From contig NZ_CP080409.1 of assembly GCF_019448235.1 (NCBI RefSeq), positions 2,108,001 to 2,172,000 on the forward strand: a stretch of 64,000 nt of DNA, written 5' to 3'. Below, piece after piece: positions 20,558 to 35,933 of this stretch. The notes under the pieces were generated by a model. It made no database searches and had not been told where the DNA came from. It worked only from the letters and a program-made list of their open reading frames with translations. Source of the stretch: Nocardioides panacisoli (lineage in GTDB: Bacteria > Actinomycetota > Actinomycetes > Propionibacteriales > Nocardioidaceae). Positions within the stretch are counted from its first letter, which is position 1. Each line of letters opens with the position of its first letter. The position numbers were made by a program, and so were the translations under genes.

Positions 20558-20593
20558 GTGCGACGACACCCTGCTCCGGCTAGCCGTCGCACT
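20557..20593. terminator. Hairpin between convergent genes
   Basis: AGTGCGACG (20557-20565) pairs with CGTCGCACT (20585-20593), a 9-bp stem with a 19-base loop, spanning the lipoprotein stop codon and the glycerate kinase stop codon. Confidence 0.6.
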
Positions 20594-21716
20594 ACATGTG
20601 ACGCCGTGCGATCTCCCGTCCCAACTGCTCCAACAGTGGCAAGGGAGCCCGCAGGCAGCGTTCGACGTCGGCCTCCAGGTCGAGGAGCGCCAGCGCACCG
20701 TGGATCCCACCGGCACGGAGGTCGTCGTCGGACAGGTCGCGCCGTCCACACACCGCGATCGTCCGGGCGCCGTGCTCGGCCGCCCTCGCAGCGACACCGA
20801 CCGGGGCCTTGCCCCGCAGGCTCTGGGCGTCCAGGGACCCCTCGCCGGTGATCACAAGGTCGCTGCCCGCCACCTGCTCGTCGAATCCCGCGAGATCAAG
20901 GACGAGATCGATCCCCGGCCGCAGCACGGCATCGAGGACGGCCAGGGCGGCGAACCCGACACCGCCTGCGGCACCAGCCCCCGGCATGTTTCTCACGTCG
21001 AACCCGACCGCCGTGGCCACACCGTCGGCCCACCGCTGCAGTCCGGCATCCAGGACTGCGACGGTCGTGTCGTCGGCTCCCTTCTGCGGTCCGTAGACGG
21101 CGGCGGCGCCGCCCGGACCCGTCAGCGGATTGTCGACGTCGCAGGCCACGACCGTCGACGCCTCGGCGAGTCGGGGGTGTAGGCCGGTGAGGTCCAGGGC
21201 CGCCACCGACTCCAGCACCGCACCACCCTCGCCGAGTGGTTCGCCGTCACGACCGAGGATCCGCGCGCCCAGCGCGCAGAGCATGCCAGCACCGCCATCG
21301 GTGCTGGCACTGCCGCCGATGCCGAGCACGATCTCGGTGCACGACGCGTCGAGTGCAGCGGCCAGCACCTCGCCGAGCCCCCGCGAGGACGCCTCGCGCG
21401 GCGCGGGTACGCCGCTGGGCAACCGGGCGAGTCCGCAGGCATCGGCCATCTCCACCACGGCGGTGTCCCCACGGCGGGCGTAGGCAGTCCTGACCGGGTG
21501 ACCCGTGGGACCAGACACGGTCACCGGGACCAGATGGAAGCCGGCGGCGACCGCGGCGGCGAGCGTGCCGTCCCCGCCGTCGGCGATCGGGACTCGTGCG
21601 ACCTCGGCGTCGGGGCGCTCGGTGACGACGCCGCGACCGACGGCGTCGGCCACCTCGACCGCCGTCGCAGATCCCTTGAACTTGTCGGGCGCGACGACGA
21701 CCCGCGGGGAGCTCAT
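20592..21716 (-). CDS. glxK: Glycerate 2-kinase
   Basis: Glycerate kinase type I (GlxK/GarK family) phosphorylates D-glycerate to 2-phosphoglycerate, the entry to lower glycolysis. The 374-residue protein has the family N-terminus VVVAPDKFKGSATA (6-19), IADGGDGT, GIGGSASTDGGAGML and ITGEGSLDAQSLRGKAP. It overlaps the LacI gene by 4 nt (21713-21716), so it is translationally coupled and belongs to the same regulon as the divergent catabolic operon. That link suggests the pathway yields glycerate or a precursor such as tartronate semialdehyde or hydroxypyruvate. Confidence 0.95.
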   Translation of the reverse strand: MSSPRVVVAPDKFKGSATAVEVADAVGRGVVTERPDAEVARVPIADGGDGTLAAAVAAGFHLVPVTVSGPTGHPVRTAYARRGDTAVVEMADACGLARLPSGVPAPREASSRGLGEVLAAALDASCTEIVLGIGGSASTDGGAGMLCALGARILGRDGEPLGEGGAVLESVAALDLTGLHPRLAEASTVVACDVDNPLTGPGGAAAVYGPQKGADDTTVAVLDAGLQRWADGVATAVGFDVRNMPGAGAAGGVGFAALAVLDAVLRPGIDLVLDLAGFDEQVAGSDLVITGEGSLDAQSLRGKAPVGVAARAAEHGARTIAVCGRRDLSDDDLRAGGIHGALALLDLEADVERCLRAPLPLLEQLGREIARRHM

Positions 21717-22744
21717 GCGCCCGGCACCCCAGTCGAGTCCCTGATCACGAGCTCGTGACCGGCGGTGCGTCGCCGCGGGCGGCTCCCGCGGTCGAGCAAC
21801 GCCAACCCGAGGGCCTGCTCGCCCATATCGGCCATCGGGAGCCGAACGGTCGTCAACGACGGAGCGAGGTCACCGGCCACCGCAACGTCGTCGAAGCCCG
21901 AAACCGAGATCTGCTCGGGCACTGCGATGCCGCGCGAGCGGAGCACGGAGAGCGCTCCGATGGCCATGTCGTCGTTCAGGGCCAGCACTGCCGTGACGTC
22001 GTGGCCCTCCTCCAGGAGCCGTGCCGTGGCCTGCTTGCCGCCGTCGCGGGTGAAGGGCGCCTCGAGGACCGGAAGGTGGTCGAAGGCCAGCCCGGCAGCC
22101 TCGTGTGCCTCCCGGACGCCCACCATGCGGTCAGCGACCGTCGTCAGCCCCAGCGACCCGGTGATGACAGCGATCCGGCGGTGCCCGAGTCCGATCAGGT
22201 GGTCGGCGACCGCGCGCCCGCCCTTGGTGTTCTCCGGGAGCACCGCGTCGGCGCCGAGGTGGTGCCGACCGATCACAGCCACACGGCCGCCGGCGGCTTG
22301 GTAGGCCTGCAGTGCTGTCTTGGCATCCCACTGTTGGGCGGGGTCGACGAACCCCGACCCGGCAATGATGATGGCACCCACGCGTTGGGCCACCAGTTCC
22401 CGGATCTGCTCGACCTCACGTCGTGGGTCCCGGCCGGTGTGACAGATCTGGACGGTGAGGCCTTCCTCCGCACCGAGCCGGAGTACGCCGCTGGCGATCT
22501 CGGCGAAGTACGGGTCCCCGATCTCGTGCACGACCAGGCCGACGGATCGCGACGTACCCGCGGCGAGGCTGCGTGCGTGCACGTTGGCGACGTACCCCAG
22601 TCGCGCCGCCACGGCTCGGACGTGGGCGGCGACGGAGTCACTGACGCCTGTCGCCCCGGAGAGGCTGCGGGATGCCGTCGCGATGGAGACGCCCGCTTCC
22701 TCCGCCACGTCCTGCAATCGCAGGGTCGCCCGCTCCTTCGCCAC
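21713..22744 (-). CDS. LacI-family transcriptional regulator
   Basis: A 343-residue regulator with the N-terminal HTH LRLQDVAEEAGVSIATASRSLSG, hinge (LGYVANVHARSLA) and a periplasmic-binding-like effector domain (SVGLVVHEIGDPYFAEI, SGFDDVAVAGDLAPSLTTVRLP). I chose the GTG at 22744 because GAGAGGAG lies about 6 bases upstream and the HTH begins soon after; a longer reading to 22807 adds no conserved sequence. It is divergent from the Liv-type operon, with a tandem operator in between, and cotranscribed with glycerate kinase. It is probably a local repressor released by a pathway sugar. Confidence 0.93.
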   Translation of the reverse strand: MAKERATLRLQDVAEEAGVSIATASRSLSGATGVSDSVAAHVRAVAARLGYVANVHARSLAAGTSRSVGLVVHEIGDPYFAEIASGVLRLGAEEGLTVQICHTGRDPRREVEQIRELVAQRVGAIIIAGSGFVDPAQQWDAKTALQAYQAAGGRVAVIGRHHLGADAVLPENTKGGRAVADHLIGLGHRRIAVITGSLGLTTVADRMVGVREAHEAAGLAFDHLPVLEAPFTRDGGKQATARLLEEGHDVTAVLALNDDMAIGALSVLRSRGIAVPEQISVSGFDDVAVAGDLAPSLTTVRLPMADMGEQALGLALLDRGSRPRRRTAGHELVIRDSTGVPGA

Positions 22745-22832
22745 TACGAGGCTCCTCTCGTCCCGGTGCCGCTGGCACGGATCGGCCGCCTGTGACTCTT
22801 GCCACATCGGCGGCCGTGTGCCTACAGTACCT

Positions 22833-22856
22833 GAAAGCGCTTACGAAAGCGCTTAC
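22833..22856. promoter_or_regulatory. Perfect tandem LacI-type operator
   Basis: GAAAGCGCTTAC occurs twice in direct succession (22833-22844, 22845-22856). Each copy contains the AAAGCGCTT palindrome typical of LacI/CcpA-like sites. The repeat starts 22 bp before the ATG of the substrate-binding protein and lies about 90 bp from the LacI start, so one site can control both directions. Confidence 0.85.
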
Positions 22857-22877
22857 GACCACCCGACGAGGAGCATC

Positions 22878-24095
22878 ATGAAGGTCCCGAGCACTCTCCG
22901 CATCTCCGCTCTCGCCGTCGTGAGCAGTCTCGCCCTCACTGGCTGTCTCTCGGGGAGCAGCGACGGCGGCAGCGACGACACCATCACCATCGGCATCTCA
23001 CTCCCCCTCACCGGTGACTTCTCCGAACCGGGGAAGGGAGTCCAGCGCGGCTATGAGGCATGGGCTGAGTACGTCAACGAGAACGGCGGCCTGCTCGGGC
23101 GCGACGTCGAGCTGGAGATCCTCGACGACCAGTCCAACGCCGACCGCGTCGCCGCCGACTACGAGAAGCTGATCAACCAGGACGGCGTCGACCTGGTCTT
23201 CGGCCCTTTCTCGACTCGCTTGGTGATCCCGGCCGCCCAGGTCGCGAAGGACTACGGCTTCACCTTCGTGGAACCGGCAGGAGCGGCACCCGAGGTCTTC
23301 GAGCAGGGCTTCGAGAACCTCTTCTACGCCGCGCCCGCCGTCGCCGACGACCACTACGACTACCTCGCCGACCACATCGAGCAGATGCCGCGCGGCCAGC
23401 GCCCGAAGACCGCTGCGTACGCGACGATGGACGACCCGTTCGCACAGGGCACCGCCTACGGACTGAAGGGCCGGCTGGAGGAGATGGGCGTGCGGACGGT
23501 TGCCGACGAGGTCTATCCCCCGAACACGACCGACTTCAGCAGCATCGCCGCCAAGATCGAGGACAGCGGCGCCGACATCGTCGTCGGAGGCACGCAATAC
23601 CAGGACGCGGTCAACCTGATCATCGCCCTGCAGCAACTCAACTATCAGCCGAAGATGGCGGCCTTCTCGACGGCGCCGACGAACCCCGAGTTCCCCGAGG
23701 CGATCGGTGACAAGACCGAGGGGATCCTCTCCCCCACCGGCTACACGCCCGAGGCCTCCTACCCGTCCAACCAGGAGTTCGTCGAGTTCTACAGCGAGAT
23801 CCACGGCAACCCGCCGGGTGAGGACGAGGCGAATGCCTGGACGACCGGTCAGGTCGTGGCAGCGGCGGTCGAGGCGGTCGAGTGCGCGGACCCGGACCCC
23901 GAGTGCCAGCAGCAGCTCACCGACTGGCTTCACGAGAACGAGGTCGACACCGTCGTCGGACCGCTGTCCTGGGACGAGGCCGGCCGCCCCCAGGGCGCCC
24001 ACATGATCCAGCAGTACGTCGATGGCGAGATCCAGATCGTCCTGCCCGAGGACCTCGCCGAGGCCGACATCATCCCCGCCAAGCCGGCCTGGTGA
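22878..24095 (+). CDS. Liv-type ABC transporter substrate-binding lipoprotein
   Basis: A 405-residue Leu/Ile/Val-binding-type (type I periplasmic) protein. The lipobox is SLALTGC with Cys23. The mature domain starts TITIGISLPLTGDFSEPGKGVQRGYEAWAEYVNENGGLLGRDVEL, typical of the family; later DSGADIVVGGTQYQDAV and FSTAPTNPEF. The family binds amino acids, amides, urea or organic acids; the sugar-type enzymes downstream suggest an unusual ligand such as a sugar acid or keto sugar. The ATG at 22878 follows GAGGAG. First gene of an operon governed by the tandem operator. Confidence 0.93.
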   Translation: MKVPSTLRISALAVVSSLALTGCLSGSSDGGSDDTITIGISLPLTGDFSEPGKGVQRGYEAWAEYVNENGGLLGRDVELEILDDQSNADRVAADYEKLINQDGVDLVFGPFSTRLVIPAAQVAKDYGFTFVEPAGAAPEVFEQGFENLFYAAPAVADDHYDYLADHIEQMPRGQRPKTAAYATMDDPFAQGTAYGLKGRLEEMGVRTVADEVYPPNTTDFSSIAAKIEDSGADIVVGGTQYQDAVNLIIALQQLNYQPKMAAFSTAPTNPEFPEAIGDKTEGILSPTGYTPEASYPSNQEFVEFYSEIHGNPPGEDEANAWTTGQVVAAAVEAVECADPDPECQQQLTDWLHENEVDTVVGPLSWDEAGRPQGAHMIQQYVDGEIQIVLPEDLAEADIIPAKPAW

Positions 24096-24113
24096 CGAAG
24101 GAGTAGCAAAGCG

Positions 24114-24992
24114 ATGTCCCTGCTGTTCCAGAGCCTCGTGCTCGGAGTCCTGCTCGGTGGGCTCTATGCCCTCCTGGCCGCCGGCCTCACGCTCTACTTC
24201 GGCGTGATGCGCGTGGTGATGATCGCCCACTCGGCGTTCCTCATCCTCGCGGCATACTTGGCGTGGTTCTTCACCACCCAGACCGGCATCGACCCCCTCG
24301 TCTCGCTGCTCGGCACCGTGCCGTTGTTCTTCCTCCTCGGCGTCGGCATCCAGCGTGTCCTCATCAAGCGGTTGCGCCCGGCGACGCTCACCATGATGTC
24401 GGTGCTGCTCACGTTCGCGATCGCCCTGGTCATCGAGGGCATGCTCGGGTTCGTCTTCACCGGCACCCAGCGCCGCATCCAGCTGTCGTACGGCGGGGCG
24501 AACCTCGAGGTGTTCGGGGCGAACATCGCCGTCGTCAAGCTGATCGCCTTCGGCTTGGCCGCGCTGTCGCTGCTCGGCCTGTACCTGCTGCTCACCAGGA
24601 CCAAGTTCGGCCAAGCCCTTCGCGCAACGATCCAGCACCCCGAGGCGGCGCAGCTCGTGGGTATCAACACCGAGCGGGTTGCCGGCTACGGGTTCGGCAT
24701 CGGCCTCGCCACCGCGGCGATCGGCGGGACCGCCCTGTCGCTCGACTCCACGATCTATCCGTCACTGCACTGGCACTGGATCGGGCCGCTGATGGCGATC
24801 ATTGTCGTCGGCGGCCTGGGCAGCATCCCCGGAGCCGCGATCGCGGCGATGGTGCTCGGCATCGGCCAGTCCCTGTTGCAGATCCCGTTCAGCACGACCT
24901 GGGCCCAGACGATCTTCTACGTCGCACTGTTCGCGACCCTGATGGTCCGGCCCCAGGGTTTCTTCGGAGGTCGTCTTGCCCAACGCTTCTGA
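24114..24992 (+). CDS. Liv-type ABC transporter permease (LivH family)
   Basis: A 292-residue inner-membrane permease with about eight hydrophobic segments. It starts MSLLFQSLVLGVLLGGLYALLAAGLTLYFGVMRVVMIAHS, the LivH hallmark, and contains TKFGQALRATIQHPEAAQLVGIN (the coupling EAA-like loop) and VVGGLGSIPGAAIAAMVLG near the C-terminus. The gene starts 18 bp after the binding-protein gene and overlaps livM by 17 nt. Confidence 0.93.
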   Translation: MSLLFQSLVLGVLLGGLYALLAAGLTLYFGVMRVVMIAHSAFLILAAYLAWFFTTQTGIDPLVSLLGTVPLFFLLGVGIQRVLIKRLRPATLTMMSVLLTFAIALVIEGMLGFVFTGTQRRIQLSYGGANLEVFGANIAVVKLIAFGLAALSLLGLYLLLTRTKFGQALRATIQHPEAAQLVGINTERVAGYGFGIGLATAAIGGTALSLDSTIYPSLHWHWIGPLMAIIVVGGLGSIPGAAIAAMVLGIGQSLLQIPFSTTWAQTIFYVALFATLMVRPQGFFGGRLAQRF

Positions 24993-26049
24993 CACGCGCA
25001 CGACGCCCTCGCGAGCCGGCGTGGCCAAGCTCGTCGGTGTCGCACTGCTGGCCGCAGCGGTGCTCTCGTTCCCGACGGTGGCGGCGAACCCGTTCATCCT
25101 CTCGGTCGGGGTCGTCATCATGAGCTACGCCCTCCTCGCGACGGGATGGAACTTCGTCGGTGGTTTCACCGGCTACATCTCGCTCGGGCACGCGGCGTAC
25201 TCCGGCCTCGGTGGCTACGCGACCGGGCTGCTGGTCATCCACACCGGCATCAACCCGTGGGGCGCCCTCGTCGCCGGAGCCGTGATCGTGGCGATCGTCG
25301 CCGTGCCCATCGGCATCGCCAGTCTCCGCGTACGCGGAGCGTCCTTCGTGATCGTCTCGATCGCCTTCGTGCTGATCCTGATGCTGGCCTTCCAATCCTG
25401 GAGCTCGGTCACCGGCGGCTCGAACGGCCTGCGGATCCCCCGTCCGTTCGCCGACGACGTGCTGCGGCCCGAGCAGCACGAACGCTTCTTCTATCTCCAC
25501 GCCGCCGCGCTCGCCGCAGCGCTTCTGGCCTGGTGGCTGATCGACCGGTCCCGGTTCGGCATCGGCCTGAAGGCCATCCGCGAGGACGAGGACAAGGCAC
25601 AGGCGCTGGGTGTGCCCACCTTCAACTACAAACTCGCGGCCTTCGTGATGTCCGCCTTCGTCACCGCGATCGGCGGCGGCCTCTATGCGCTCTGGTTCGG
25701 CTTCCTGGACCCGATCTTCCAGTTCTCGATCCTCGTCGGTGCCTACATGGTCCTGATGAGCCTCCTCGGCGGGATCCGGTCACTGTTCGGCCCGCTGCTG
25801 GGCGCGGTGATCGTCGGGTACGCGGTGGAGTTCTTCAAGAGCGAGTACGGCGACTCCCAGTTCCACCTGGTGGCGATGGGGCTCCTGCTCGGCGTGGTCG
25901 TGCTGTTCATGCCGGAGGGGATCATCCCGGCGGTCCAGAGCCTCGTTCGACGGTTCCGCCCCCAGTCCTCCTCGATCCGCGAGGTCTCCCAAGCCGAGCT
26001 CGCCGAGCAGCGTCGCGAGGAGCAGGTCACGGAAGGAGCATCACGATGA
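24976..26049 (+). CDS. Liv-type ABC transporter permease (LivM family)
   Basis: A 357-residue LivM permease. Features: MSYALLATGWNFVGGFTGYISLGHAAYSGLGGYATG, SRFGIGLKAIREDEDKAQALGVPTFNYKL (coupling loop) and a charged C-terminal tail of about 45 residues. The start is a TTG at 24976 with GGAGG (24966-24970) five bases upstream, both inside the 3' end of livH; the 17-nt overlap implies coupled translation. Confidence 0.92.
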   Translation: MPNASDTRTTPSRAGVAKLVGVALLAAAVLSFPTVAANPFILSVGVVIMSYALLATGWNFVGGFTGYISLGHAAYSGLGGYATGLLVIHTGINPWGALVAGAVIVAIVAVPIGIASLRVRGASFVIVSIAFVLILMLAFQSWSSVTGGSNGLRIPRPFADDVLRPEQHERFFYLHAAALAAALLAWWLIDRSRFGIGLKAIREDEDKAQALGVPTFNYKLAAFVMSAFVTAIGGGLYALWFGFLDPIFQFSILVGAYMVLMSLLGGIRSLFGPLLGAVIVGYAVEFFKSEYGDSQFHLVAMGLLLGVVVLFMPEGIIPAVQSLVRRFRPQSSSIREVSQAELAEQRREEQVTEGASR

Positions 26050-26822
26050 CCACCGCAGCGGAGCAGGCCACCGGTCCGACCGGCGAGGCGACCATCGGGC
26101 TCGCCACGGAGGGACTTGCCAAGTCCTTCGGTGGCGTCCGTGCCGTCGACGGCGCATCCGTGGGGTTCCACCACGGCAAGGTCAACGCGCTCATCGGGCC
26201 CAACGGCTCGGGCAAGACCACGTTCTTCAATTGCGTCACCGGGATGATCCGGCCCGACGCGGGCCGGGTGACGTACGCCGGCCGCGACATCAGCGGCAAG
26301 CCGCCGCACCGCATCGCTCGTGCGGGCATCGGACGCAGTTTCCAGCTGTGTCGGATCTTCCCGAGGATGACGGTGCTCGAGAACATCCTGGCGGCGGTGC
26401 GGCCGCCCAGTCCGATGCTCCTGCTCGCGCCCTCCCGGCACCACGGCGACATCGAACGCGCCCGGTCGCTGCTGGCCCGCGTGGGCATCGAACACCTCGA
26501 GGACGTCGAGGCCCGCGACCTCTCCTACGGCCAGCAGAAGCTGCTCGAGCTCGCCGGCGTCCTGATGGCGGACCCGGAGACGATCATGCTCGACGAGCCA
26601 GCCGGCGGCGTGAATCCGGCGCTCATCGACCGGATCGCCGGCCTGGTCCGCTCCCTGAACGCCGAGGGCCGGACCTTCATCGTCGTCGAACACAACATGG
26701 ACCTGGTGATGAGTCTCTCCGACCACGTCGTCGTCTTCGACCGTGGTCGGCCCATCGCGGAGGGTCCGCCGTCGGTCGTCCAGCACGACCCCCGAGTCCT
26801 GGAGGCCTACCTTGGCGTCTGA
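26046..26822 (+). CDS. Liv-type ABC transporter ATPase (LivG family)
   Basis: A 258-residue ATPase with Walker A GPNGSGKTT, signature LSYGQQKLLELA (a Tyr replaces the first Gly of LSGGQ, common in LivG), Walker B TIMLDEPAGGVNP and switch His in VVEHNMDLV. An upstream stretch in the same frame shows no similarity, so the ATG at 26046 is taken; it overlaps the livM stop codon by 4 nt (ATGA). Confidence 0.93.
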   Translation: MTTAAEQATGPTGEATIGLATEGLAKSFGGVRAVDGASVGFHHGKVNALIGPNGSGKTTFFNCVTGMIRPDAGRVTYAGRDISGKPPHRIARAGIGRSFQLCRIFPRMTVLENILAAVRPPSPMLLLAPSRHHGDIERARSLLARVGIEHLEDVEARDLSYGQQKLLELAGVLMADPETIMLDEPAGGVNPALIDRIAGLVRSLNAEGRTFIVVEHNMDLVMSLSDHVVVFDRGRPIAEGPPSVVQHDPRVLEAYLGV

Positions 26823-27573
26823 ATACCTGCTCGAGCTCGACGACATCGAGGCCGCATACGGCCGTGCCGCCCTGGTCCTGCGTGGACTGACCGTGAAGGT
26901 CCCTCCGGCGACCGTCGTCTGCCTCGTCGGCCCCAACGGCGCCGGCAAGTCGACCGTGCTGAAGGTCGCCAGCGGCATGCTCACCCCCCGGTCGGGCACC
27001 ATTCGTGTCGCGGGCCGCGACGTCACGCGCAACAACCCGCAGCAGATGCTGGGCGCCGGCCTCTCACATGTCCTGCAGGGACACAGCGTGTTCAAGGAGA
27101 TGTCGGTCGCGGAGAACGTGTTGCTCGGCGCCTACTCGCTCAGCGACCGACGCGAGATCGACGAACGCGTGGGATTCGTCAAGGACCTGTTCCCGGTCGT
27201 CGCCGAGCGCTGGGGAGCCCTCGCCGGCGCACTGTCCGGTGGGCAGCAGAAACAGGTCGAGTTCGCCCGCTCCCTCATGGTGAGCCCACAGGTCGTCCTG
27301 TTGGACGAGCCGTCCATGGGGCTGGACCCCAAGGCCACCGGCACCGTGTTCGAGCAGGTGGTGCGGATGCGGGACGCGGGCACCGCCGTCCTGCTCGTGG
27401 AGCAGAACGCCCGCCGCGCGCTGCAGACGGCGGACCTCGGCTGCGTCCTCGACCTCGGCCGGGTCCACATCTCCGGGCCCGCCGACGACCTCCTCGCCGA
27501 CCCCCAGCTCGCCGAGCTCTACCTGGGCGGTCAACCGACCGGCCGTTCCGATGCCTCCTCGACCACCGCGTGA
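26812..27573 (+). CDS. Liv-type ABC transporter ATPase (LivF family)
   Basis: A 253-residue ATPase with GPNGAGKST, LSGGQQKQVEFARSL, VVLLDEPSMGLDPKA and LLVEQNARRALQTAD, as in LivF. The start is a TTG at 26812 (ASEYLLELDDIEAAYG) six bases after GGAGG (26801-26805), overlapping livG by 11 nt. This is the second TTG start in the operon. It completes a five-gene importer whose ATPases energise livH/livM. Confidence 0.92.
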   Translation: MASEYLLELDDIEAAYGRAALVLRGLTVKVPPATVVCLVGPNGAGKSTVLKVASGMLTPRSGTIRVAGRDVTRNNPQQMLGAGLSHVLQGHSVFKEMSVAENVLLGAYSLSDRREIDERVGFVKDLFPVVAERWGALAGALSGGQQKQVEFARSLMVSPQVVLLDEPSMGLDPKATGTVFEQVVRMRDAGTAVLLVEQNARRALQTADLGCVLDLGRVHISGPADDLLADPQLAELYLGGQPTGRSDASSTTA

Positions 27574-27603
27574 GACGACGCCGCTGCTACCCGAAGGACC
27601 GAC

Positions 27604-28755
27604 ATGCCTGACACGACCATCCGCATCCTGATGAACGGCGTCACCGGACGCATGGGGTATCGCCAGCACCTGCTGCGATCGGTCCTGGCGATCCGCGATG
27701 ACGGCGGGATTCCCCTGCCCGACGGCGGTCGACTCCAGGTCGAGCCAGTGCTCGTCGGTCGCAACGCCGACAAGCTGCGTCGGCTGGCGGCTCAGCACGA
27801 TGTCGCGGACTGGACGACCGACCTGGACTCCGCGCTCGCCGAGGATCCCGCCACCGTTTACTTCGATGCACAGGTCACCGGGGAGCGCCGCAAGGCGATC
27901 CTCAAGGCGGCTGCTGCCGGCAAGCACGTCTACACCGAGAAGCCCACGGCCGAGTCCGTCGCCGAAGGGCAGGAACTCGTCGACTCTGCCAGCCAGCACG
28001 GCATCATCAACGGGGTCGTCCACGACAAGTTGTACCTGCCAGGCCTGTTGAAGCTGAAGCGCCTCGTGGACAGCGGCTTCTTCGGTCGCATCCTGTCGGT
28101 CCGTGGCGAATTCGGCTATTGGGTCTTCGAGGGCGACGGGGTCCCCGCGCAACGTCCGAGCTGGAACTACCGCGCCGAGGACGGCGGCGGCGTGGTGTTG
28201 GACATGTTCTGCCACTGGAACTACGTCCTGGAGAACCTCTTCGGTTCGGTGGAGGCCGTGACCGCCAGGGCCGTCACCCACATCCCCGAGCGCTGGGACG
28301 AACGCGGCGAACGGTACGACGCGACGGCCGACGACGCGGCGTACGCCATCTTCGAGCTGGCCGGGGGCATCATCGCCCAGGTCAACTCGTCTTGGGCGGT
28401 GCGGGTCGAGCGCAAGGAGCTGGTGGAGTTCCAGGTCGACGGGACCCTGGGGTCGGCCGTCGCCGGGCTCTTCGAGTGTCGGGTGCAGCCACGGGACCTG
28501 ACCCCGATGCCGGTCTGGAACCCGGACCTGCCCACGACCGAGGACTTCCGGTCCCAGTGGTCGCCGGTGCCCGACAACGACACGTTCGGCAACGGCTTCC
28601 GGGCGCAGTGGGAGGAGTTCCTGCTCGACGTCCACCACGGTCGCCCTCACCCCTATGACTTCGCCGCAGGCGTGCGCGGACTCGAGCTCGTCGACGCCGG
28701 GCTCCGCTCTTCGGCAGAGGGGCGCCGCATCCCGATGGCCGGTGCGGGGCGATGA
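27604..28755 (+). CDS. Gfo/Idh/MocA family oxidoreductase
   Basis: A 383-residue NAD(P)-dependent sugar or polyol oxidoreductase. The N-terminal Rossmann domain has NGVTGRMGYRQ (11-21) in the dinucleotide-binding position, an unusual GxTGxxG variant, and Glu112-Lys113-Pro114 (YTEKPTAES) holding the catalytic lysine. The C-terminal domain includes DGGGVVLDMFCHWNYVLENLFG with the DxxxH-like active-site pattern. Family members oxidise inositols, levoglucosan, 1,5-anhydro sugars and glycosides at C3. It ends in a 4-nt overlap with the DUF993 gene. Confidence 0.9.
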   Translation: MPDTTIRILMNGVTGRMGYRQHLLRSVLAIRDDGGIPLPDGGRLQVEPVLVGRNADKLRRLAAQHDVADWTTDLDSALAEDPATVYFDAQVTGERRKAILKAAAAGKHVYTEKPTAESVAEGQELVDSASQHGIINGVVHDKLYLPGLLKLKRLVDSGFFGRILSVRGEFGYWVFEGDGVPAQRPSWNYRAEDGGGVVLDMFCHWNYVLENLFGSVEAVTARAVTHIPERWDERGERYDATADDAAYAIFELAGGIIAQVNSSWAVRVERKELVEFQVDGTLGSAVAGLFECRVQPRDLTPMPVWNPDLPTTEDFRSQWSPVPDNDTFGNGFRAQWEEFLLDVHHGRPHPYDFAAGVRGLELVDAGLRSSAEGRRIPMAGAGR

Positions 28756-29921
28756 CCTCGCCCGGGGCCGACGTCGCGATCCCCCTCGCCGACGGCGGGT
28801 GGGAGGAGGTCGCGCTGACCGAACCTCGTGACTGGCCCGAGCACCCCGAACCATTCTCCAGCCGGGTTGCGTTCGCGGCCGCCCACGTCGTTGCCGATCC
28901 CCGTGGCGAGAACGTCCCTGGCTCGCCGGCGACGATCGACTGGGAGTCCACCCTCGCCTTCCGCCGGCACCTCTTCCGCCACGGTTTCGGTGTCGCCGAG
29001 GCGATGGACACCGCCCAGCGCAACATGGGCCTCGACTGGCCCGCCGTGCAGGAGCTCGTACGACGCAGTGCCGCGCAGGCCGCGGAAGTCGGGGCGCGGA
29101 TCGCATCAGGTGCCGGCACCGACCATCGAGCCGAGTTGCGCACCCCGGCCGACGTGCGCGAGGCGTACCGCGAGCAGGTCGGCTTCGTGGAGTCCACCGG
29201 CTCGCAGGTGATCGTGATGGCCTCGCGCCAGCTCGCGGCGGTCGCCGCGGGGGCCGACGACTACCTCGCCGTGTACGACGCCGTGCTCGACGAGGTCGAC
29301 CGGCCCGTCATCCTCCACTGGCTCGGCGAGGCGTTCGACCCGCACCTGCGCGGCTACTGGGGATCCACGGACGTCGACATCGCGACCGACACCTTCCTGG
29401 ACCTGATCAAGGCCCATGCGGACCATGTCGACGGCGTGAAGGTGTCGCTGCTCTCCGCGGACCACGAGACCGAGCTCCGGGCACGCCTTCCCGCTGACGT
29501 TCGCCTCTACACCGGCGACGACTTCAACTACCCGGGCCTCATCCGGGGCGACGGGGTGCGCTACTCCGACGCACTGCTGGGCGCCTTCGCGGCAATCGCA
29601 CCGGCAGCCTCGGCGGCGCTGGCAGCACTCGATCGTGACGACCTGGCGACCTATGACGCGGAGATGGCACCGACCCTGCCACTCGCACGCCACGTGTTCG
29701 AGGCGCCGACATGGCACTACAAGGCCGGGATCGCGTTCCTGTCCTGGCTGTGCGGGCACCAGCCCGGATTCGCCATGGTCGGGGGGCTCCAGTCCTCGCG
29801 GAGTGTGGTGCACCTGGGGCGGCTCTTCGCCCTCGCCAACGATGCACGCCTCCTCCCGGACCCTGACCTCGCTGCCCACCGCATGCGCACGTGGCTCGCC
29901 GGTGCCGGGGTGGTCCGATGA
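28752..29921 (+). CDS. DUF993 family, dihydrodipicolinate-synthase-like TIM-barrel protein
   Basis: A 389-residue protein of the DUF993 family, distantly related to class I aldolases of the DHDPS/NAL superfamily. Supporting features: VDRPVILHWLGEAFDPHLRGYW in the middle, DHVDGVKVSLLSADHE with a lysine in the Schiff-base strand position (GVKVSLL), YTGDDFNYPGLIRGDGVRYSDALLGAFAAIAPAAS, and GHQPGFAMVGGLQSSRS near the end. A retro-aldol or dehydratase step is the likely chemistry, but the activity is uncharacterised. It overlaps both neighbours by 4 nt, so the three enzymes are made together. Confidence 0.85.
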   Translation: MTSPGADVAIPLADGGWEEVALTEPRDWPEHPEPFSSRVAFAAAHVVADPRGENVPGSPATIDWESTLAFRRHLFRHGFGVAEAMDTAQRNMGLDWPAVQELVRRSAAQAAEVGARIASGAGTDHRAELRTPADVREAYREQVGFVESTGSQVIVMASRQLAAVAAGADDYLAVYDAVLDEVDRPVILHWLGEAFDPHLRGYWGSTDVDIATDTFLDLIKAHADHVDGVKVSLLSADHETELRARLPADVRLYTGDDFNYPGLIRGDGVRYSDALLGAFAAIAPAASAALAALDRDDLATYDAEMAPTLPLARHVFEAPTWHYKAGIAFLSWLCGHQPGFAMVGGLQSSRSVVHLGRLFALANDARLLPDPDLAAHRMRTWLAGAGVVR

Positions 29922-30811
29922 CGACGCTCGACGTGCCCTCCCTGGATCCGGCACGGCTGGACACCCCCACGGTGGGAGATCCGCGACTGGCGCGACTGTC
30001 ACTGAACCAGAAGACCGTGAACGGGTGGTCCCTGCGCCGTGCGGTCGAGGGCTGCGTTCGTCACGGCCTGCCCGCACTCGGGGTGTGGCGCGAGCCGCTC
30101 GCGGACGTCGGGGTGCGCGACGGTGCCGCGATGATCGCCGATGCCGGACTGCGGGTCTCCTCACTGTGCCGCGGTGGATTCTTCACCGTGCCCGCGGGGC
30201 GCGAGCAGGAGCGCGCGCACGATGACAACCGACGCGCCCTCGACGAGGCAGCGTCCCTCGGAGCGCCCTGCCTGGTCCTGGTGCCAGGGGGCCTACCCGA
30301 CGGTGATCGGGACCTGCGGTCGGCCCGATCCCGGGCTGCTGAGGCGATCGAGCGGTTGGTGCCCCATGCATTGGAGGTCGGCGTACGGCTCGCGATCGAG
30401 CCGATGCATCCGATCTTCGCAGCCGACCGGGGCGTTGTCTCCACTCTGCGACAAGCACTCGACATCGCCGACCCGATGCCGCCGGAGGCAGTCGGCATCG
30501 TCGTCGACACCTTCCACGTGTGGTGGGAGCCCGGCGTCGAGGAACAGATCGCGCGCGCCGGTGACCGCGTCGCGTCCTACCAGGTGTGTGAGTGGATCAC
30601 CCCGCTCCCGCCCGACGCACTCCTCTCCCGCGGGATGATGGGCGACGGCCACATCGACTTCGCCCACCTCACGCGCTGCGTCGTCGCCGCCGGCTACCGC
30701 GGCGACGTCGAGGTCGAGATCTTCAACGCCGACGTCTGGGCCGCTGACGGTGACGCCGTCATCGACACCGTGGCGCGCCGCTACGCCGAGCTCGTGGAGC
30801 CGCACCTCTAG
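29918..30811 (+). CDS. Sugar phosphate isomerase/epimerase-like TIM-barrel protein
   Basis: A 297-residue member of the AP-endonuclease-2/xylose-isomerase-like TIM-barrel family. Metal-ligand signatures are AIEPMHPIF (Glu with His), VGIVVDTFHVWWEP (Asp, His), MGDGHIDFAHL (Asp-x-His) and VEVEIFN (Glu). Such proteins isomerise, epimerise or eliminate keto sugars. The ATG at 29918 overlaps the DUF993 stop codon (ATGA). It is the last of three coupled enzymes before the secreted pair. Confidence 0.9.
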   Translation: MTTLDVPSLDPARLDTPTVGDPRLARLSLNQKTVNGWSLRRAVEGCVRHGLPALGVWREPLADVGVRDGAAMIADAGLRVSSLCRGGFFTVPAGREQERAHDDNRRALDEAASLGAPCLVLVPGGLPDGDRDLRSARSRAAEAIERLVPHALEVGVRLAIEPMHPIFAADRGVVSTLRQALDIADPMPPEAVGIVVDTFHVWWEPGVEEQIARAGDRVASYQVCEWITPLPPDALLSRGMMGDGHIDFAHLTRCVVAAGYRGDVEVEIFNADVWAADGDAVIDTVARRYAELVEPHL

Positions 30812-30828
30812 CGACCCCGACTGCAGTC

Positions 30829-31596
30829 GTGACACCAACCAACCTCGGTACGGAAGGGAAACGCCATGCAGCACCAACCCCATCGACAACCGCGACCCCC
30901 CCCTCGCGACGACGGGCGGCCGCGGCAGCCCTCGCCCTGTCGGCCCTCATCCTGGCGCCCATGAGCACTGCGCACGGCGGACAGCCCCCTGGGGCACCTC
31001 CAGAGCACCGCGTGTACGCCGCTCCCACGCCGCAGCACTGGGACCCGCTCACCGAGGCCCTCTGGTCGTTCGAACGCGGGCAGGTGGTGCTCACCGAGCC
31101 GGGCACGAGCCCGGGTGGACCACGTCGACCGTTCGAGTACGCCATCGTCTCGGCGGGTCCTGAACTCGCCTCGGTGGAGATCTCGACCCAGGTCCGCATC
31201 GACGAACCCGTGGCGGTGAACAACCGGGACGTCATCCTGGTGTGGAACTACCAGTCACCGACGCGCTTCTACTACGCCCACCTGTCGCAGGACAACACGA
31301 TCTATCCCCACAACGGCATCTTCAAGGTCGACGATGCCGATCGGGTCCGCATCGACGACCAGCGGGACGGAGCCGTGGGTGCACCGCCCGCGATCGACGA
31401 CACCGATTGGCACGACGTCCGTCTCGACTACGACGCTGCCACCGGCGAGGTGGCGGTCCACGTCGACGGGAGCGAGCAGCCCCTGATGACGGCCACCGAC
31501 ACCAGCTTCGCCGGGGGCCGAGTGGGCTTCGGGTCCTTCGACAACCACGGCCGCACGCGGCAGTTCCGGGTGACGGGTACGCCCGCCGCCTCCTGA
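30829..31596 (+). CDS. Secreted concanavalin-like jelly-roll (DUF1080-like) protein; start region disturbed
   Basis: The uninterrupted frame from the GTG at 30829 gives 255 residues: a twin-arginine-like signal (SRRRAAAAALALSALILAPMSTAHG) and a jelly-roll domain (FYYAHLSQDNTIYPHNGIFKV, DTDWHDVRLDYDAATGEVAVHVDG, GGRVGFGSFDNHGRTRQFRVTG). This resembles DUF1080/LamG folds, which include 3-keto-disaccharide hydrolases. The start is problematic: the GTG lacks a ribosome binding site, whereas GGAAGGG with an ATG at 30866 is well placed but out of frame and stops near 30961. A C8 tract (30896-30903) separates the two; one more C, or two fewer, would join that ATG to the signal peptide. Confidence 0.7.
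   Translation: MTPTNLGTEGKRHAAPTPSTTATPPSRRRAAAAALALSALILAPMSTAHGGQPPGAPPEHRVYAAPTPQHWDPLTEALWSFERGQVVLTEPGTSPGGPRRPFEYAIVSAGPELASVEISTQVRIDEPVAVNNRDVILVWNYQSPTRFYYAHLSQDNTIYPHNGIFKVDDADRVRIDDQRDGAVGAPPAIDDTDWHDVRLDYDAATGEVAVHVDGSEQPLMTATDTSFAGGRVGFGSFDNHGRTRQFRVTGTPAAS
30833..30842 (+). repeat. Leader motif CACCAACCAA, copy 1 (copy 2 at 31661-31670)
   Basis: CACCAACCAA followed by a GGAAGG-type ribosome binding site lies 23 bp before the ATG at 30866, and the same word lies 25 bp before the ATG at 31696. The two secreted-protein genes therefore share a duplicated 5' leader, which supports 30866 as the genuine initiation region of the first. Confidence 0.6.
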
Positions 31597-31695
31597 TCCC
31601 CGTGGGCCCCGAGCAACTCGGGGCCCACGAGGGCTGGCGGTGGCAGCCGCCAGCAGTTGTCACCAACCAATCCCATAGTGAAGGAACCATCCCCC

Positions 31696-33984
31696 ATGCG
31701 CACACGCAACTGGTGGGTCGGTGCTGCGGCGGCATCCGTGCTAGCGGCCTCACTGACCCCTCTCGGATCGCCAGCCAGCGCTGACGACGACACCCCCATC
31801 ACCGACCCCGTGCCCACGTCACCGCAACCATCGACCCTCGGGCTGGTCCTCGAGGAGTACGCCGAGCTACCGGCCTCCGAACCGAACGGACCGGTCACCG
31901 ACGACCGCATCAGCAGCCGCCACAACCGGATCAACTACATCGGCGAGGTGCCCGACGGTTCGGGCCGCAAGTACCTCCCCGACCTCAACGGCCCACTGCA
32001 CCTGCTGGACGGGGACAGCCGCCACACCTACCTCGACTTCGCCGAGGAGTTCCCCGACTTCCTCTCCTGGCGCGGCTTGGGTTCCGGGTTCGGCTTCGTC
32101 GCATTCCACCCGGAATTCGAGGACAACGGAACCTTCTACACCGTCCACACCGAGACGCCGGACGCACCGGGTGAGTCGACGTACGAACCACAGCCCTACA
32201 GCACCGGCGGCGTGCAGAGCGTGGTGACGGAGTGGACGGCAGATGACCCGTCGGCCGACGTCTTCCGCGGCACCCACCGCGAAGTCTTCCGGTTCCGGTT
32301 CCGGACGCAGATCCACGCGATCCAGCAGATCGACTTCAATCCGACCGCCGAGCCCGGCGACGAGGACTACGGCCTGCTCTACCTCGCCGTCGGGGACGGG
32401 GGCATCGGCGTCAGCACCGACGTGCCGCAGGACATGGGGACACCTGCCGGCAAGATCCTCCGTATCGACCCGTCCGGCGACGATGCCCCCAACGGTCAGT
32501 ACGGCATCCCGGCCAGCAACCCATTCGTGGACCGCGAGGACGCACTCGGCGAGATCTACGCCGTCGGCATGCGGGACCCACACCGCTTCAGCTGGGACGC
32601 CGGCGGCGAGCACCGGATGTTCCTCGGCCACATCGGCCAGCACGCCATCGAGGGCATCTACGACGTCGACGCCGGTGACAACTTCGGTTGGCCCGTCATC
32701 GAGGGGCGACTGGCGTACCGCAACGAGAACCAGTGCTACCTGTACCCGCTGACCGCGGAGATGGAGCAGGCCGGATACGACTACCCGGTCACGTCCTATG
32801 ACCACGACAAGCCGGCCAACTGGTCGTGCAACAGCGACTCCGGACACGCGATCTCCGGTGGGCTCGTCCACCGGGGTGACCTGCCCGGCCTGAGGGGCAA
32901 GTACGTCTTCGGCGACCTCGTGGAGGGGCGCGTGTACTTCAGCGACCTGCCCGAAATGGTCGACGACGGCGACGCCGAGGCGCCGATCCACGAACTGGCG
33001 CTCTACGACGAGGGCGGTACCCGGATGCGCATGCCCGATCTCGTCGGCGACGGCCGCGCCGACCTGCGTTTCGGCACCGATGCCGAGGACAACCTCTACC
33101 TGCTGGCCAAGGGCAACGGCACGGTCTGGAAGGTGGCCGACACCAAGCGCGCCCCGGTGCCGAAGCCGGTCGAGCCCGCGATCGCCGACGAACTCGTGGC
33201 GAGCTACGACTTCGAGCACCCCTTCGCCGCGCGTGACGACCGCGAGGAGGACCAGGGCCTGTCCAAGACCCTGATCCAACTCGTCAACGGCGAGGAGGAC
33301 ATGCGCGTCGACGACGGCGCCCACCCCGGATCCAACAACTCGCTCCAGATCCACAGCGCTGCCGAATCGCCGACCGGTGAGGCATGGAAGGCCGGCGTCT
33401 GGGACAGGGACGGCGCCGAGTCGCTGGGTGCGTTCAACGGCGCCGAGGGCATCACCGTGATGGGTTGGGTGAAGATGACCGGCCAGAACCCGACGCCGGG
33501 CTACAACGCGATCGGACTGACCGGCGTACTCAGCGGCGACTCCGAAGGGCACAACGTGCGTGCGCTGCTAGAGCTGATCCAGGTCGACGGGGAACTGCGA
33601 CTGGTGGCCCTGGGTCGGCGCCTCGACGGCGGGGAGTCGCAGACCTTCGCCGCCTCGACCGACTGGGAGGACCTGCTCCCGGACGGCGAGTGGGTCCACC
33701 TGGCGGCCACCTTCGACTACACCACCGGAGAGATGGCCCTGTATCGCAACGGGCGCGCGTTGAGCGGGTTCTACACCAAGGACGGGGATCCGTGGCAGGT
33801 CGACGGGACCGGCACCACCGCCTCGGATCCGAAGGGGATCAAGATCGGTGGCTCGTTCCCCCAGGACGGCTCCGAGCGCAATCCCTGCAACTGCCGCCTG
33901 GACGGTCTGATGTTCTTCGACGACGACTTGAGCAGGAGCGAGGTGGCTCGCCAGCACCGTCGGATGGAGCGTTCACGTCCCTAG
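31696..33984 (+). CDS. Secreted glucose/sorbosone dehydrogenase fused to a LamG-like domain
   Basis: A 762-residue exported protein. Signal peptide residues 1-31 (RTRNWWVGAAAASVLAASL, cleavage near ASA-DD). Residues about 50-490 form a GSDH-type beta-propeller: GLGSGFGFVAFHPEF, LLYLAVGDGGIG, GKILRIDPSGDDAPNGQYGIPASNPF, AVGMRDPHRFSWD, GDNFGWPVIEG. Soluble PQQ sugar dehydrogenases share these motifs. Residues about 510-760 are a concanavalin-like domain (GITVMGWVKMTG, GEWVHLAATFDYTTGEMALYRNG, RLDGLMFFDDDLS), likely for carbohydrate binding. The ATG at 31696 follows GAAGGAA. It could oxidise a sugar outside the cell for import by the upstream Liv-type transporter. Confidence 0.88.
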   Translation: MRTRNWWVGAAAASVLAASLTPLGSPASADDDTPITDPVPTSPQPSTLGLVLEEYAELPASEPNGPVTDDRISSRHNRINYIGEVPDGSGRKYLPDLNGPLHLLDGDSRHTYLDFAEEFPDFLSWRGLGSGFGFVAFHPEFEDNGTFYTVHTETPDAPGESTYEPQPYSTGGVQSVVTEWTADDPSADVFRGTHREVFRFRFRTQIHAIQQIDFNPTAEPGDEDYGLLYLAVGDGGIGVSTDVPQDMGTPAGKILRIDPSGDDAPNGQYGIPASNPFVDREDALGEIYAVGMRDPHRFSWDAGGEHRMFLGHIGQHAIEGIYDVDAGDNFGWPVIEGRLAYRNENQCYLYPLTAEMEQAGYDYPVTSYDHDKPANWSCNSDSGHAISGGLVHRGDLPGLRGKYVFGDLVEGRVYFSDLPEMVDDGDAEAPIHELALYDEGGTRMRMPDLVGDGRADLRFGTDAEDNLYLLAKGNGTVWKVADTKRAPVPKPVEPAIADELVASYDFEHPFAARDDREEDQGLSKTLIQLVNGEEDMRVDDGAHPGSNNSLQIHSAAESPTGEAWKAGVWDRDGAESLGAFNGAEGITVMGWVKMTGQNPTPGYNAIGLTGVLSGDSEGHNVRALLELIQVDGELRLVALGRRLDGGESQTFAASTDWEDLLPDGEWVHLAATFDYTTGEMALYRNGRALSGFYTKDGDPWQVDGTGTTASDPKGIKIGGSFPQDGSERNPCNCRLDGLMFFDDDLSRSEVARQHRRMERSRP

Positions 33985-34137: not shown

Positions 34138-34920
34138 ATGACGGTGCAGGAGGACGTCGCGGCACAGCCGCCGGCATCCGGGGCCGATGGCCTCGTCGTG
34201 ATGCGCGACGTACAGAAATGGTTCGGCAAGCTGCACGTGTTGCAGGACATCGACCTCACGGTCAAGCGCGGCGAGGTCGTCGTGGTGATCGGGCCGTCGG
34301 GTTCGGGCAAGTCCACGCTGTGCCGCACGATCAACCGCCTGGAGACGATCGACTCCGGCGAGATCCTGATCGACGGTGAGCGACTGCCCGAGGAGGGCAA
34401 GGCCCTGGCGCACCACCGCGCCGACGTCGGCATGGTCTTCCAGAGCTTCAACCTGTTCGCCCACAAGACGATCCTCGAGAACGTCACGCTGGGGCCGATC
34501 AAGGTGCGCAAGAAGTCCAAGGCCGAGGCGGAGAAGCGGGCCCACGAGCTGCTGGATCGCGTGGGCATCGCCCACCAGGCCGAGAAGTATCCCGCCCAGC
34601 TGTCCGGTGGTCAGCAGCAGCGCGTCGCCATCGCGCGGGCGCTCGCGATGGACCCGAAGGTGATGCTCTTCGACGAGCCCACCTCCGCGTTGGACCCCGA
34701 GATGATCAAGGAAGTCCTCGACGTCATGGTCGAGCTCGCCGAGGGCGGCATGACGATGATCGTGGTCACCCACGAGATGGGCTTCGCCCGCACGGCCGCC
34801 CACCGGGTCTGCTTCATGGCCGACGGCGCCATCGTCGAGGAGACCGACCCCGAGTCCTTCTTCACCAACCCGCAGAGCGATCGCGCCAAGGACTTCCTCG
34901 GCAAGATCCTCAAGCACTGA
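34138..34920 (+). CDS. gluA: Glutamate-type ABC transporter ATPase
   Basis: A 260-residue polar-amino-acid ATPase of the GluA/GlnQ type. Walker [11 protein letters not shown]-loop [25 protein letters not shown], signature [15 protein letters not shown], Walker [15 protein letters not shown] and switch His in [10 protein letters not shown]. The ATG at 34138 is chosen over upstream in-frame sequence because the alignment starts at [19 protein letters not shown]. It heads a four-gene gluABCD order as in corynebacteria. Confidence 0.94.
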
Positions 34921-34961
34921 AGAGCGACGGACACCAGTCCGCCCACACGGAAGGAAGACAG

Positions 34962-35855
34962 ATGAGGTTCAAGAGAAGCCTGGCCGCCTTCGCCGGCATC
35001 GGGCTCGCGTTCTCGCTCGCTGCGTGCGGTGAGGCCGGCACCGAGGGCGGTGGCGCGGACGTCGAGGCCGCGGACGACTGCGAGGGCAAGTTCGACGACG
35101 GCACCCAGATGGCCCAGTGGGCCGACTCCGGCGAGATCAGCGTCGGCGTCAAGTACGACCAGCCCGGCCTCGGCTTCAAGGGTGCCGCGGACGACATCCC
35201 GAAGGGCTTCGACGTCGAGGTCGCCAAGATCCTGGTGGCCGACCTGTGCATCGACCCGCAGGGCGACGGCGTCGAGTGGGTGGAGACCGTCTCCGACAAC
35301 CGCGAGCCGTTCCTCCAACAGGAGCGCGTCGGCCTGGTGCTGGCGTCCTACTCCATCACCGACGACCGCCGCTCGGTCGTCGGTCAGACCGGTCCGTACA
35401 TGATCACCGGCCAGCAGCTGCTCGTCCCGGCCGACTCCGACATCGAGTCGATCGACGAGCTGCAGGGTCAGGAGGTCTGCTCGGTGACCGGGTCGACCTC
35501 CATCGACCGGATCAACGAGAAGGGCGCCAAGGGCGTCGGCTTCGACTCCTACTCCGAGTGCGTGCAGAAGGTCATGGACGGCACCGTCGACGGCATGTCC
35601 ACCGACGGCTCGATCCTGGCCGGCTTCGCTGCCGAGAACGAGGGTGAGCTGAGCGTCGTCGGGGACGAGTTCTCCGAGGAGCGCATCGGCGTCGGCTACC
35701 AGCCCGGCAACACCGAGACGTGCGAGTGGATCAACGAGACGCTGACCACCGCGTACGACGAGGGCACCTGGGCGGAGGCCTTCGAGGGCACCCTCGGCCC
35801 GTCGGGCGTCGAGACCCCGGAGCCCCCGGAGCTCGACGACTGCCAGACGTTCTGA
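34962..35855 (+). CDS. gluB: Glutamate-binding lipoprotein
   Basis: A 297-residue type II periplasmic-binding lipoprotein: lipobox SLAAC with Cys22, then the solute domain (ISVGVKYDQPGLGFKG, KGFDVEVAKILVADL, PFLQQERVGLVLASYSITDDRR), as in GluB of Corynebacterium. Extra cysteines (VCSVTGS, SECVQ, ETCEWIN) may form disulfides. The ATG at 34962 follows GGAAGGA. A strong hairpin between this gene and gluC probably raises its level relative to the permeases. Confidence 0.93.
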   Translation: MRFKRSLAAFAGIGLAFSLAACGEAGTEGGGADVEAADDCEGKFDDGTQMAQWADSGEISVGVKYDQPGLGFKGAADDIPKGFDVEVAKILVADLCIDPQGDGVEWVETVSDNREPFLQQERVGLVLASYSITDDRRSVVGQTGPYMITGQQLLVPADSDIESIDELQGQEVCSVTGSTSIDRINEKGAKGVGFDSYSECVQKVMDGTVDGMSTDGSILAGFAAENEGELSVVGDEFSEERIGVGYQPGNTETCEWINETLTTAYDEGTWAEAFEGTLGPSGVETPEPPELDDCQTF

Positions 35856-35878
35856 GCCACCACGTAGTGGACGACCGG

Positions 35879-35907
35879 CCGGGGCGGCGCGAGCAGCGCC
35901 GCCCCGG
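35879..35907 (+). terminator. Intra-operon hairpin between gluB and gluC
   Basis: CCGGGGCGGCGC (35879-35890) pairs with GCGCCGCCCCGG (35896-35907): 12-bp stem, five-base loop and no U-tract. It is probably a partial terminator or RNA stabiliser that gives more binding protein than permease. Confidence 0.75.
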
Positions 35908-35933
35908 CGTTCGCCAGAGAGGAGAAGGCTGCC

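Follow-up and report, generated by a model that had tools for sequence, protein, structure and literature searches.

A 64,000-nt window of the genome of the soil bacterium Nocardioides panacisoli (GCF_019448235.1, NZ_CP080409.1, positions 2,108,001 to 2,172,000 of the forward strand) contains a conserved, regulated catabolic module that includes an uncharacterised enzyme with the fold of dihydrodipicolinate synthase (DHDPS). The enzyme is a DUF993 protein (PF06187, E = 4e-175), encoded on the plus strand at 28752..29921 of the window. Its gene lies between those of a Gfo/Idh/MocA oxidoreductase (gfo, 27604..28755, plus strand) and a sugar-isomerase-like TIM barrel of PF01261 (tim, 29918..30811, plus strand). 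These three genes are the constant part of the module; importers and outer enzymes vary by lineage. A bolder reading, to which we give somewhat less than an even chance, is that they form an undescribed oxidise-rearrange-cleave module of Actinomycetota and Proteobacteria, in which DUF993 would be a Schiff-base lyase whose substrate is a keto-sugar and not a 2-keto acid. In Nocardioides and its relatives, this module might be fed by a secreted glucose/sorbosone dehydrogenase (GSDH)/lectin enzyme and a Liv-type importer carrying a sugar derivative.

Twelve genes were assigned from open frames, Pfam and NCBIfam profiles, and homology. Their coordinates and strands agree with a sequence-only reading of the same DNA, and so do their families except for one label. 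The gfo/DUF993, DUF993/tim and lacI/glycerate kinase pairs each overlap by 4 nt in the coordinates: both the tight core and the coupling of the kinase to lacI noted in that reading are present. The parts form a real unit: they occur together and side by side in other genomes, share an operator and are in some cases fused, as described below.

Conservation of the three-gene core

Two sets of loci were compared. The first, 80 named-genome loci from a search with DUF993, is biased, because the loci were chosen as the best of 493 relatives. The second consists of 40 loci chosen, so as to cover families, from the 120 DUF993-positive genomes of the class (120 of 394, approximately 30%). The genes gfo, DUF993 and tim were contiguous in 39 of the 40 class-wide loci and in 68 of the 78 first-set loci having a called DUF993 gene. 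The remaining 10 include cut contigs and start-call gaps; gfo and tim flank DUF993 in L044, L052, L099 and L104. Gene clustering over the 80 loci found gfo and tim in 75 each, lacI in 50, livH in 47, the substrate-binding protein (SBP) gene in 45, gsdh in 29, the jelly-roll gene in 23 and the glycerate kinase gene in 20, counts that are lowered by cut contigs and missed gene calls. The gene order was seen again in many genera, with core proteins 56-88% identical to those of the window, and in 41 of the 47 livH-bearing loci lacI was transcribed away from the operon.

In the class-wide set, the core was the whole operon in 18 of 40 loci (21 if an added lacI is permitted); Liv genes were present in one locus, GSDH in two and glycerate kinase in five. 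Therefore, the full import-to-glycerate scheme of the sequence-only reading describes the form that the module takes in one lineage, the module itself being more widespread.

Among 120 Nocardioidaceae genomes, DUF993 was present in 15 and a Gfo orthologue in 13, all within those 15. Orthologues of the SBP (at least 76% identity) and of the GSDH were each found in 11 genomes, which were identical and all DUF993-positive. The SBP was on the same contig as DUF993 in 11 of 11 genomes, and the GSDH in 10 of 11. In this profile, matches of 47-49% identity in G432 and G237, and that of a second copy in G373, were not accepted as orthologues; the raw tally was 13 of 120 genomes. Lack of co-occurrence in other genomes had been named in advance as grounds for abandoning the proposal, and the survey came out in its favour.

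In a tree of 129 DUF993 proteins, all 48 Liv-linked proteins were located within one clade, together with 24 others (support 0.37). The Liv label changed 10 times; 200 shuffles gave 39 changes on average and never fewer than 30. This agrees with a common origin of the Liv operon, although it is not proof. Proteobacterial plasmids with gfo-DUF993-tim were found in Chelatococcus, Paracoccus and Pseudoroseomonas. Plasmids of Erwinia and Paraburkholderia have split or partial versions of the core, and on others DUF993 is accompanied by genes for GMC, Dabb, LacI and glycerate kinase.

The LacI operator

The operator AAGCGCTTACGAAAGCGCTT (22835..22854) is located between lacI and the SBP gene and is composed of two AAGCGCTT palindromes 12 bp apart. 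The lacI gene, assigned from profile matches, occupies 21713..22807 on the minus strand; its start is uncertain, possibly 22744. No other exact copy of WAAGCGCTTWCG was found anywhere in the genome, and no second near copy of the operator (up to three mismatches) within the window.

The AAGCGCTT site was found upstream of 54 of 75 first-set operons, compared with 8 of 597 control genes from the same loci; three cut loci, and two of the 80 without a called DUF993 gene, were omitted. This count is not independent, because the motif was read from that set. The class-wide set was fetched after motif discovery, and there the site was upstream of 33 of 40 operons, compared with 1 of 387 control genes from the same loci. 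The tandem form preceded 34 of the 75 first-set operons and none of the 40 class-wide ones. The position and conservation of the tandem AAGCGCTT operator suggest that the catabolic operon would be repressed by its own LacI bound there.

A copy of the operator also precedes a detached gsdh in L035, L062 and L161 and a detached jelly-roll gene in L050; in L183, one is between tim and gsdh. This means that the secreted proteins belong to the regulon in those genomes.

Two other genes were seen beside such sites. In Pseudonocardia (L071, 344-2032), a gene for a 562-aa protein is divergent from gfo with the operator in between; no family matching this protein was found in Pfam (E<=0.1) or NCBIfam (E<=1e-5). 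In Actinomadura (L107, 15599-16657), an LPMO_10 gene with CBM2 adjoins lacI of the core locus and has a AAGCGCTT site in front.

The secreted GSDH and jelly-roll proteins

The last gene of the operon (31693..33984, plus strand) encodes a beta-propeller that matches PF07995 (75.5 bits) with an attached Laminin_G_3 domain, in agreement with the secreted GSDH-type dehydrogenase with a binding domain described before. His208 and the stretch R294-D295-P296-H297-R298-F299 are invariant in 14 of 14 orthologues. His208 sits in an HAIQ, HGIQ or HGFQ context; the catalytic histidine of pyrroloquinoline quinone-dependent glucose/sorbosone dehydrogenases is presumably expected in an HxGG context. By sequence, the best-scoring solved chains for the propeller were those of hedgehog-interacting protein (6e-8); 2ism (2e-7) and similar GSDH-type proteins of bacteria came after them.

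The preceding gene (30829..31596, plus strand) encodes a secreted protein that matched no Pfam family at E<=1e-3. Its model (pLDDT 80.7) matched jelly-roll (ConA-like) structures: TSP_C and CBM66 ranked first, DUF1080-type 3-keto-glycoside eliminase/hydratases (9fbe, 8v31 and 3osd among others) ranked below them, and many lectins came after. When 22 orthologues, the window's included, were searched with a maximum E of 10, weak TSP_C, lectin and LamG matches were obtained and PF06439 was not among the 11 families reported, the HMMER filters dropping most matches above 0.1. Thus, the DUF1080 label given to this protein earlier applies at most at the level of the fold and not by sequence.

GSDH-LamG and the jelly roll were read in one reading frame in all six regions examined for it (two of Serinicoccus and four of Cellulosimicrobium). 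Aeromicrobium L055 has the jelly roll on the N-terminal side of GSDH, and L161 has it on the C-terminal side; a separate adjoining gene in L161 has a sub-threshold Laminin_G_3 match. From these fusions, the two proteins very likely act together outside the cell. It should be added that the operator is not shared everywhere: AAGCGCTT was found in none of the seven fusion-survey regions. In Cellulosimicrobium, the fusion gene is outside the neighbourhood of the operon.

The Liv-type importer

The composition of a HAAT (Liv) importer is complete, as the earlier reading had it. All five genes are on the plus strand: the SBP lipoprotein (22878..24095; Peripla_BP_6, PF13458, 200 bits), a LivH-like permease (24114..24992) and a LivM-like permease (24976..26049; start uncertain, possibly 25021), both of PF02653 (BPD_transp_2), and LivG-like (26046..26822) and LivF-like (26815..27573; start uncertain, possibly 26812) ABC ATPases. 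The ATPases were assigned from conserved operon position and homology rather than by a family scan.

By sequence, the SBP is nearest to amino-acid binders. Ser79, Thr102 and Glu226 of LivJ are, we assume, the residues that read the amino acid. In the alignment they correspond to Thr113, Ala136 and Thr265, respectively: two of the three were lost. This replacement makes it unlikely that the SBP binds only ordinary amino acids.

Directly downstream of the operon, at 34138-37507 of the window, four genes resemble a glutamate-type ABC importer as judged by eye.

DUF993 and the candidate Schiff-base lysine

DUF993 has the (beta/alpha)8 fold and the C-terminal helices of DHDPS. A DUF993 structure, 4dnh, was released in 2012 under the title 'hypothetical protein'. 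Lys230 is invariant in 17 of 17 sequences. We take Lys161 to be the Schiff-base lysine of Escherichia coli DapA. Lys230 was aligned over the GIK of Pseudomonas aeruginosa DapA by HMMER (weak, E 0.09), and over Lys167 of the DapA of this genome by hhalign with five DHDPS relatives (weak, probability 1.4%). The hhalign alignment of DUF993 against a single DapA stopped short of the lysine region.

The fold, the position of the lysine and a GDD stretch are common to DUF993 and the DHDPS/NAL class I aldolase superfamily (KdgD, KDG aldolase, YagE). DUF993 differs from this superfamily in that it is approximately 90 residues longer, has no PF00701 match (only PF06187 was reported at E<=1e-3), and has lost the GTTGE motif, as described below.

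No paper on DUF993 by that name was found, a search that covered the open-licence PMC literature and so is not conclusive; nor was anything relevant found there that combines the families of the module. The Sinorhizobium meliloti DUF993 gene SMc04132 is listed as uncharacterised, and SMc04133 as a putative oxidoreductase, in a published PhaR table; another paper concerns SMc04134. On pSymB of S. meliloti (L112), DUF993 is surrounded by genes for CoA-transferase, enoyl-CoA hydratase and aldehyde dehydrogenase, and enoyl-CoA hydratase or CoA-transferase genes are again near DUF993 in L113, L119 and L120.

The oxidoreductase, the TIM barrel and the glycerate kinase

The Gfo protein, assigned from profile matches, keeps the EKP lysine (Glu112-Lys113) and the D...H pair (Asp200/His204), which we take to be the catalytic residues of Gfo/Idh enzymes. 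Its closest solved chain, 3oqb, is named just 'Oxidoreductase'. The TIM protein matches PF01261, with no subfamily model near its cut-off, and its close solved relatives are SMc04130 (3ju2), 3qc0 and 7vpf. It keeps Glu161, Asp197, His200, Glu265 and Glu267, the E/D/H/E pattern presumably expected of the metal site in PF01261 barrels.

The glycerate kinase gene (glxK, 20592..21716, minus strand) matches PF02595 (422 bits) and TIGR00045. A second, more distant copy is located elsewhere in the genome. Glycerate kinases of any kind are present in 115 of 120 Nocardioidaceae genomes; because they are near-universal, linkage of the gene is informative and its presence is not.

Proposed pathway

The secreted GSDH/lectin pair may act on or capture a sugar-like compound outside the cell. 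The operon structure and the pocket residues suggest that the product would be imported by the Liv-type importer, the binding pocket of which does not seem to be the classical amino-acid one. As judged from its family, Gfo/Idh would use NAD(P) to oxidise a single hydroxyl group, giving a ketone, and the TIM barrel, probably metal-dependent, would isomerise, epimerise or eliminate beside this ketone. DUF993 might then form a Schiff base via Lys230, as the modelled fold and the aligned lysine suggest, leading to C-C cleavage or to removal of water or CO2. One fragment may be, or become, glycerate, which would be converted to phosphoglycerate by the LacI-linked kinase; the recurrent linkage of this gene points to such a step. 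We consider that this scheme as a whole, a LacI-repressed operon running from outer capture and Liv import through oxidation, rearrangement and DUF993 cleavage to glycerate output, stands about an even chance of being correct.

Several points weigh against the proposal. The sequence similarity between DUF993 and DHDPS is weak, so that the equivalence of the lysines rests mainly on the fold and on collinear weak alignments. GTTGE, which we take to be the carboxylate-binding motif of DHDPS, is replaced in DUF993 by D86-T87-A88-Q89-R90, and the aligned M-D-T-A-Q-R is invariant in DUF993. This replacement makes a pyruvate-type aldolase reaction doubtful. The DHDPS fold and the conserved lysine do speak in favour of the retro-aldol role given to DUF993 in the sequence-only reading. 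As for glycerate as the output, the kinase is a frequent but not an obligatory partner: it is linked in 20 of 80 and 5 of 40 loci and is absent from most. No AAGCGCTT was found in the stretch tested for 21 of 75 and 7 of 40 operons, including all four Serinicoccus loci, and neighbouring genes elsewhere point to several different substrates.

Alternative pathways and neighbouring genes

The most probable of the alternatives, in our view still unlikely, is a sugar-acid pathway, in which the core would feed or drain an aldonate, aldarate or uronate and DUF993 would be a dehydratase/decarboxylase or a keto-acid aldolase like KdgD or KDG aldolase. It is supported by family f18, where in seven of 11 loci (L154-L158, L160, L162) the core is followed, on the same strand and in the same operon, by genes for a DHDPS protein resembling KdgD and for an enolase-superfamily protein resembling galactarate dehydratase. 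The KdgD-like protein of L154 exceeded its subfamily cut-off (398 bits against 278), but the KdgD equivalog (297 of 374 bits) and talarate/galactarate dehydratase (230 of 500) models were under theirs. In addition, gfo of Chelatococcus overlaps with a gene that carries the annotation 'enolase', UxaC and UxaE genes are near the core in L076, and a TTT-type binding protein gene directly follows tim in Pseudoroseomonas. None of these partners is present in the window operon, however, and the DHDPS carboxylate motif is not kept in DUF993. In the non-phosphorylative Entner-Doudoroff branch, a DHDPS-fold aldolase is combined with glycerate kinase as the output; the window operon differs from it in having no sugar-acid dehydratase or glyceraldehyde dehydrogenase.

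A variant of the 3-keto-glycoside or levoglucosan route seems unlikely. Here Gfo/Idh would form a 3-ketone, the PF01261 protein would eliminate or hydrate, the outer jelly roll would be the hydratase, and DUF993 would cleave the 3-keto sugar in place of a final reduction. According to the parts seen of PMC7676230 and PMC10066097, the levoglucosan pathway LgdA-LgdB1-LgdB2-LgdC resembles the window in its Gfo/Idh beside one or more PF01261 proteins (the LgdA/LgdB1 family pair), its ABC importer and, in Bacillus smithii, its LacI-type regulator. It differs in using a sugar ABC importer and in ending with reduction to glucose by a second Gfo/Idh, LgdC; those parts of the two papers mention no DHDPS-fold partner or glycerate kinase. 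The oxidoreductase, PF01261-type lyase and jelly-roll hydratase fold of the 3-keto-glycoside route (C- and O-glycosides; in part PMC13273386) can be paired one to one with window genes. The best NCBIfam model for the Gfo protein is also levoglucosan dehydrogenase (NF052479), the fold matches of the jelly roll include the hydratases named above, and in L073 a PF06439 match downstream of the core was just under the cut-off (25.2 of 26.8 bits). However, the module fails three tested features of these routes. The Gfo protein reached 57.5 bits against the 650-bit cut-off of the LgdA model; PF06439 was reported neither in the window jelly roll nor in 21 orthologues in the search described above; and there was no second Gfo/Idh reductase among the operon genes, the rest of the genome not having been searched for one. 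In addition, TSP_C and CBM66 structures outrank the hydratases among the fold matches of the window jelly roll. The 3-keto-glycoside route is not known to involve DUF993, a Liv importer, GSDH or glycerate kinase.

A pentose (D-xylose-type) oxidative pathway, as proposed for a cluster on the conjugative nicotine-catabolic plasmid pAO1 of Paenarthrobacter nicotinovorans, is quite unlikely. A 2013 paper on pAO1 deals, by its title, with xylose. The cluster (L117, 353-12364) contains a sugar ABC importer, GMC oxidoreductase, aldehyde dehydrogenase, Gfo, DUF993 and glycerate kinase. Its Gfo, DUF993 and glycerate kinase are 62%, 53% and 48% identical to those of the window, respectively, and form a related run; the cluster is a divergent version and a true relative of the module. 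The aldehyde dehydrogenase is annotated 'D-xylose catabolic process'. In L107 and L111, the core is directly preceded by xylB and xylA; both models exceeded their cut-offs in L107, and the genes in L111 belong to the same gene clusters. Nevertheless, this linkage occurs in just two of 80 loci, and the cluster has no PF01261 core protein: GMC oxidoreductase, aldehyde dehydrogenase and another sugar ABC importer take the place of Liv, GSDH and the jelly roll. The main text of the pAO1 papers found (open-licence PMC) makes no mention of the carbohydrate cluster under any of five terms.

Equally improbable is an inositol branch, in which the core would handle an inositol isomer or derivative. It is suggested by iol genes near the core in five of the six loci of family f21 (L166-L170). 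L166 has IolC (over the cut-off), a KduI/IolB protein, a thiamine diphosphate enzyme, a Cgl0159-like protein and a second Gfo/Idh. Against this, f21 is one family of the sample, its iol genes are on the opposite strand, and none is present in the window operon. A chance neighbourhood of an amino-acid importer and unrelated sugar genes, which the HAAT family of the importer might suggest, can be dismissed as highly improbable, since the 11 of 120 genomes with SBP orthologues are the very ones with GSDH orthologues, mostly on the DUF993 contig, and the operator counts point to one shared operator.

Neighbour families were identified in one representative each and extended to other loci by clustering. 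The importers near the core are of the Liv and NMT1/SsuA types (the latter in five of 40 loci), with CUT1 binding proteins in L076, L090 and L098; on plasmids they are MFS, CUT2-like ABC (by annotation) and TTT. The TRAP gene carried by the Paracoccus plasmid was left out of the importers of the module, being more than 7 kb from gfo and beyond transposase genes. GH29 is near the core in L090. RbsD- and RbsK-cluster genes adjoin the core in eight of 10 loci of one genus (L144-L153, identified in L144). The site of the rbs-side LacI, where found, is GTGGAATCGATTACAC; it differs from the core operator, and rbs was therefore treated as a mere neighbour. Methyltransferases, an amine oxidase, SRP54 and a Bax inhibitor near the core look incidental. 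The substrates indicated by neighbours (rbs, iol, kdgD, xylAB, UxaC/UxaE, GH29, LPMO) conflict, and none was adopted. This variety suggests that the core acts on a widely shared intermediate or on a whole compound class rather than on a single exotic sugar. The 'oxidised sugar or sugar acid' of the sequence-only reading fits as well as any other substrate, but is not proven.

Now that DUF993 has been placed in the DHDPS fold, with a candidate catalytic lysine, and in a fixed three-gene core under a defined operator, both its reaction and its substrate can be tested directly. The module could add a new cleavage of the sugar carbon chain and new ligands for Liv-type importers.

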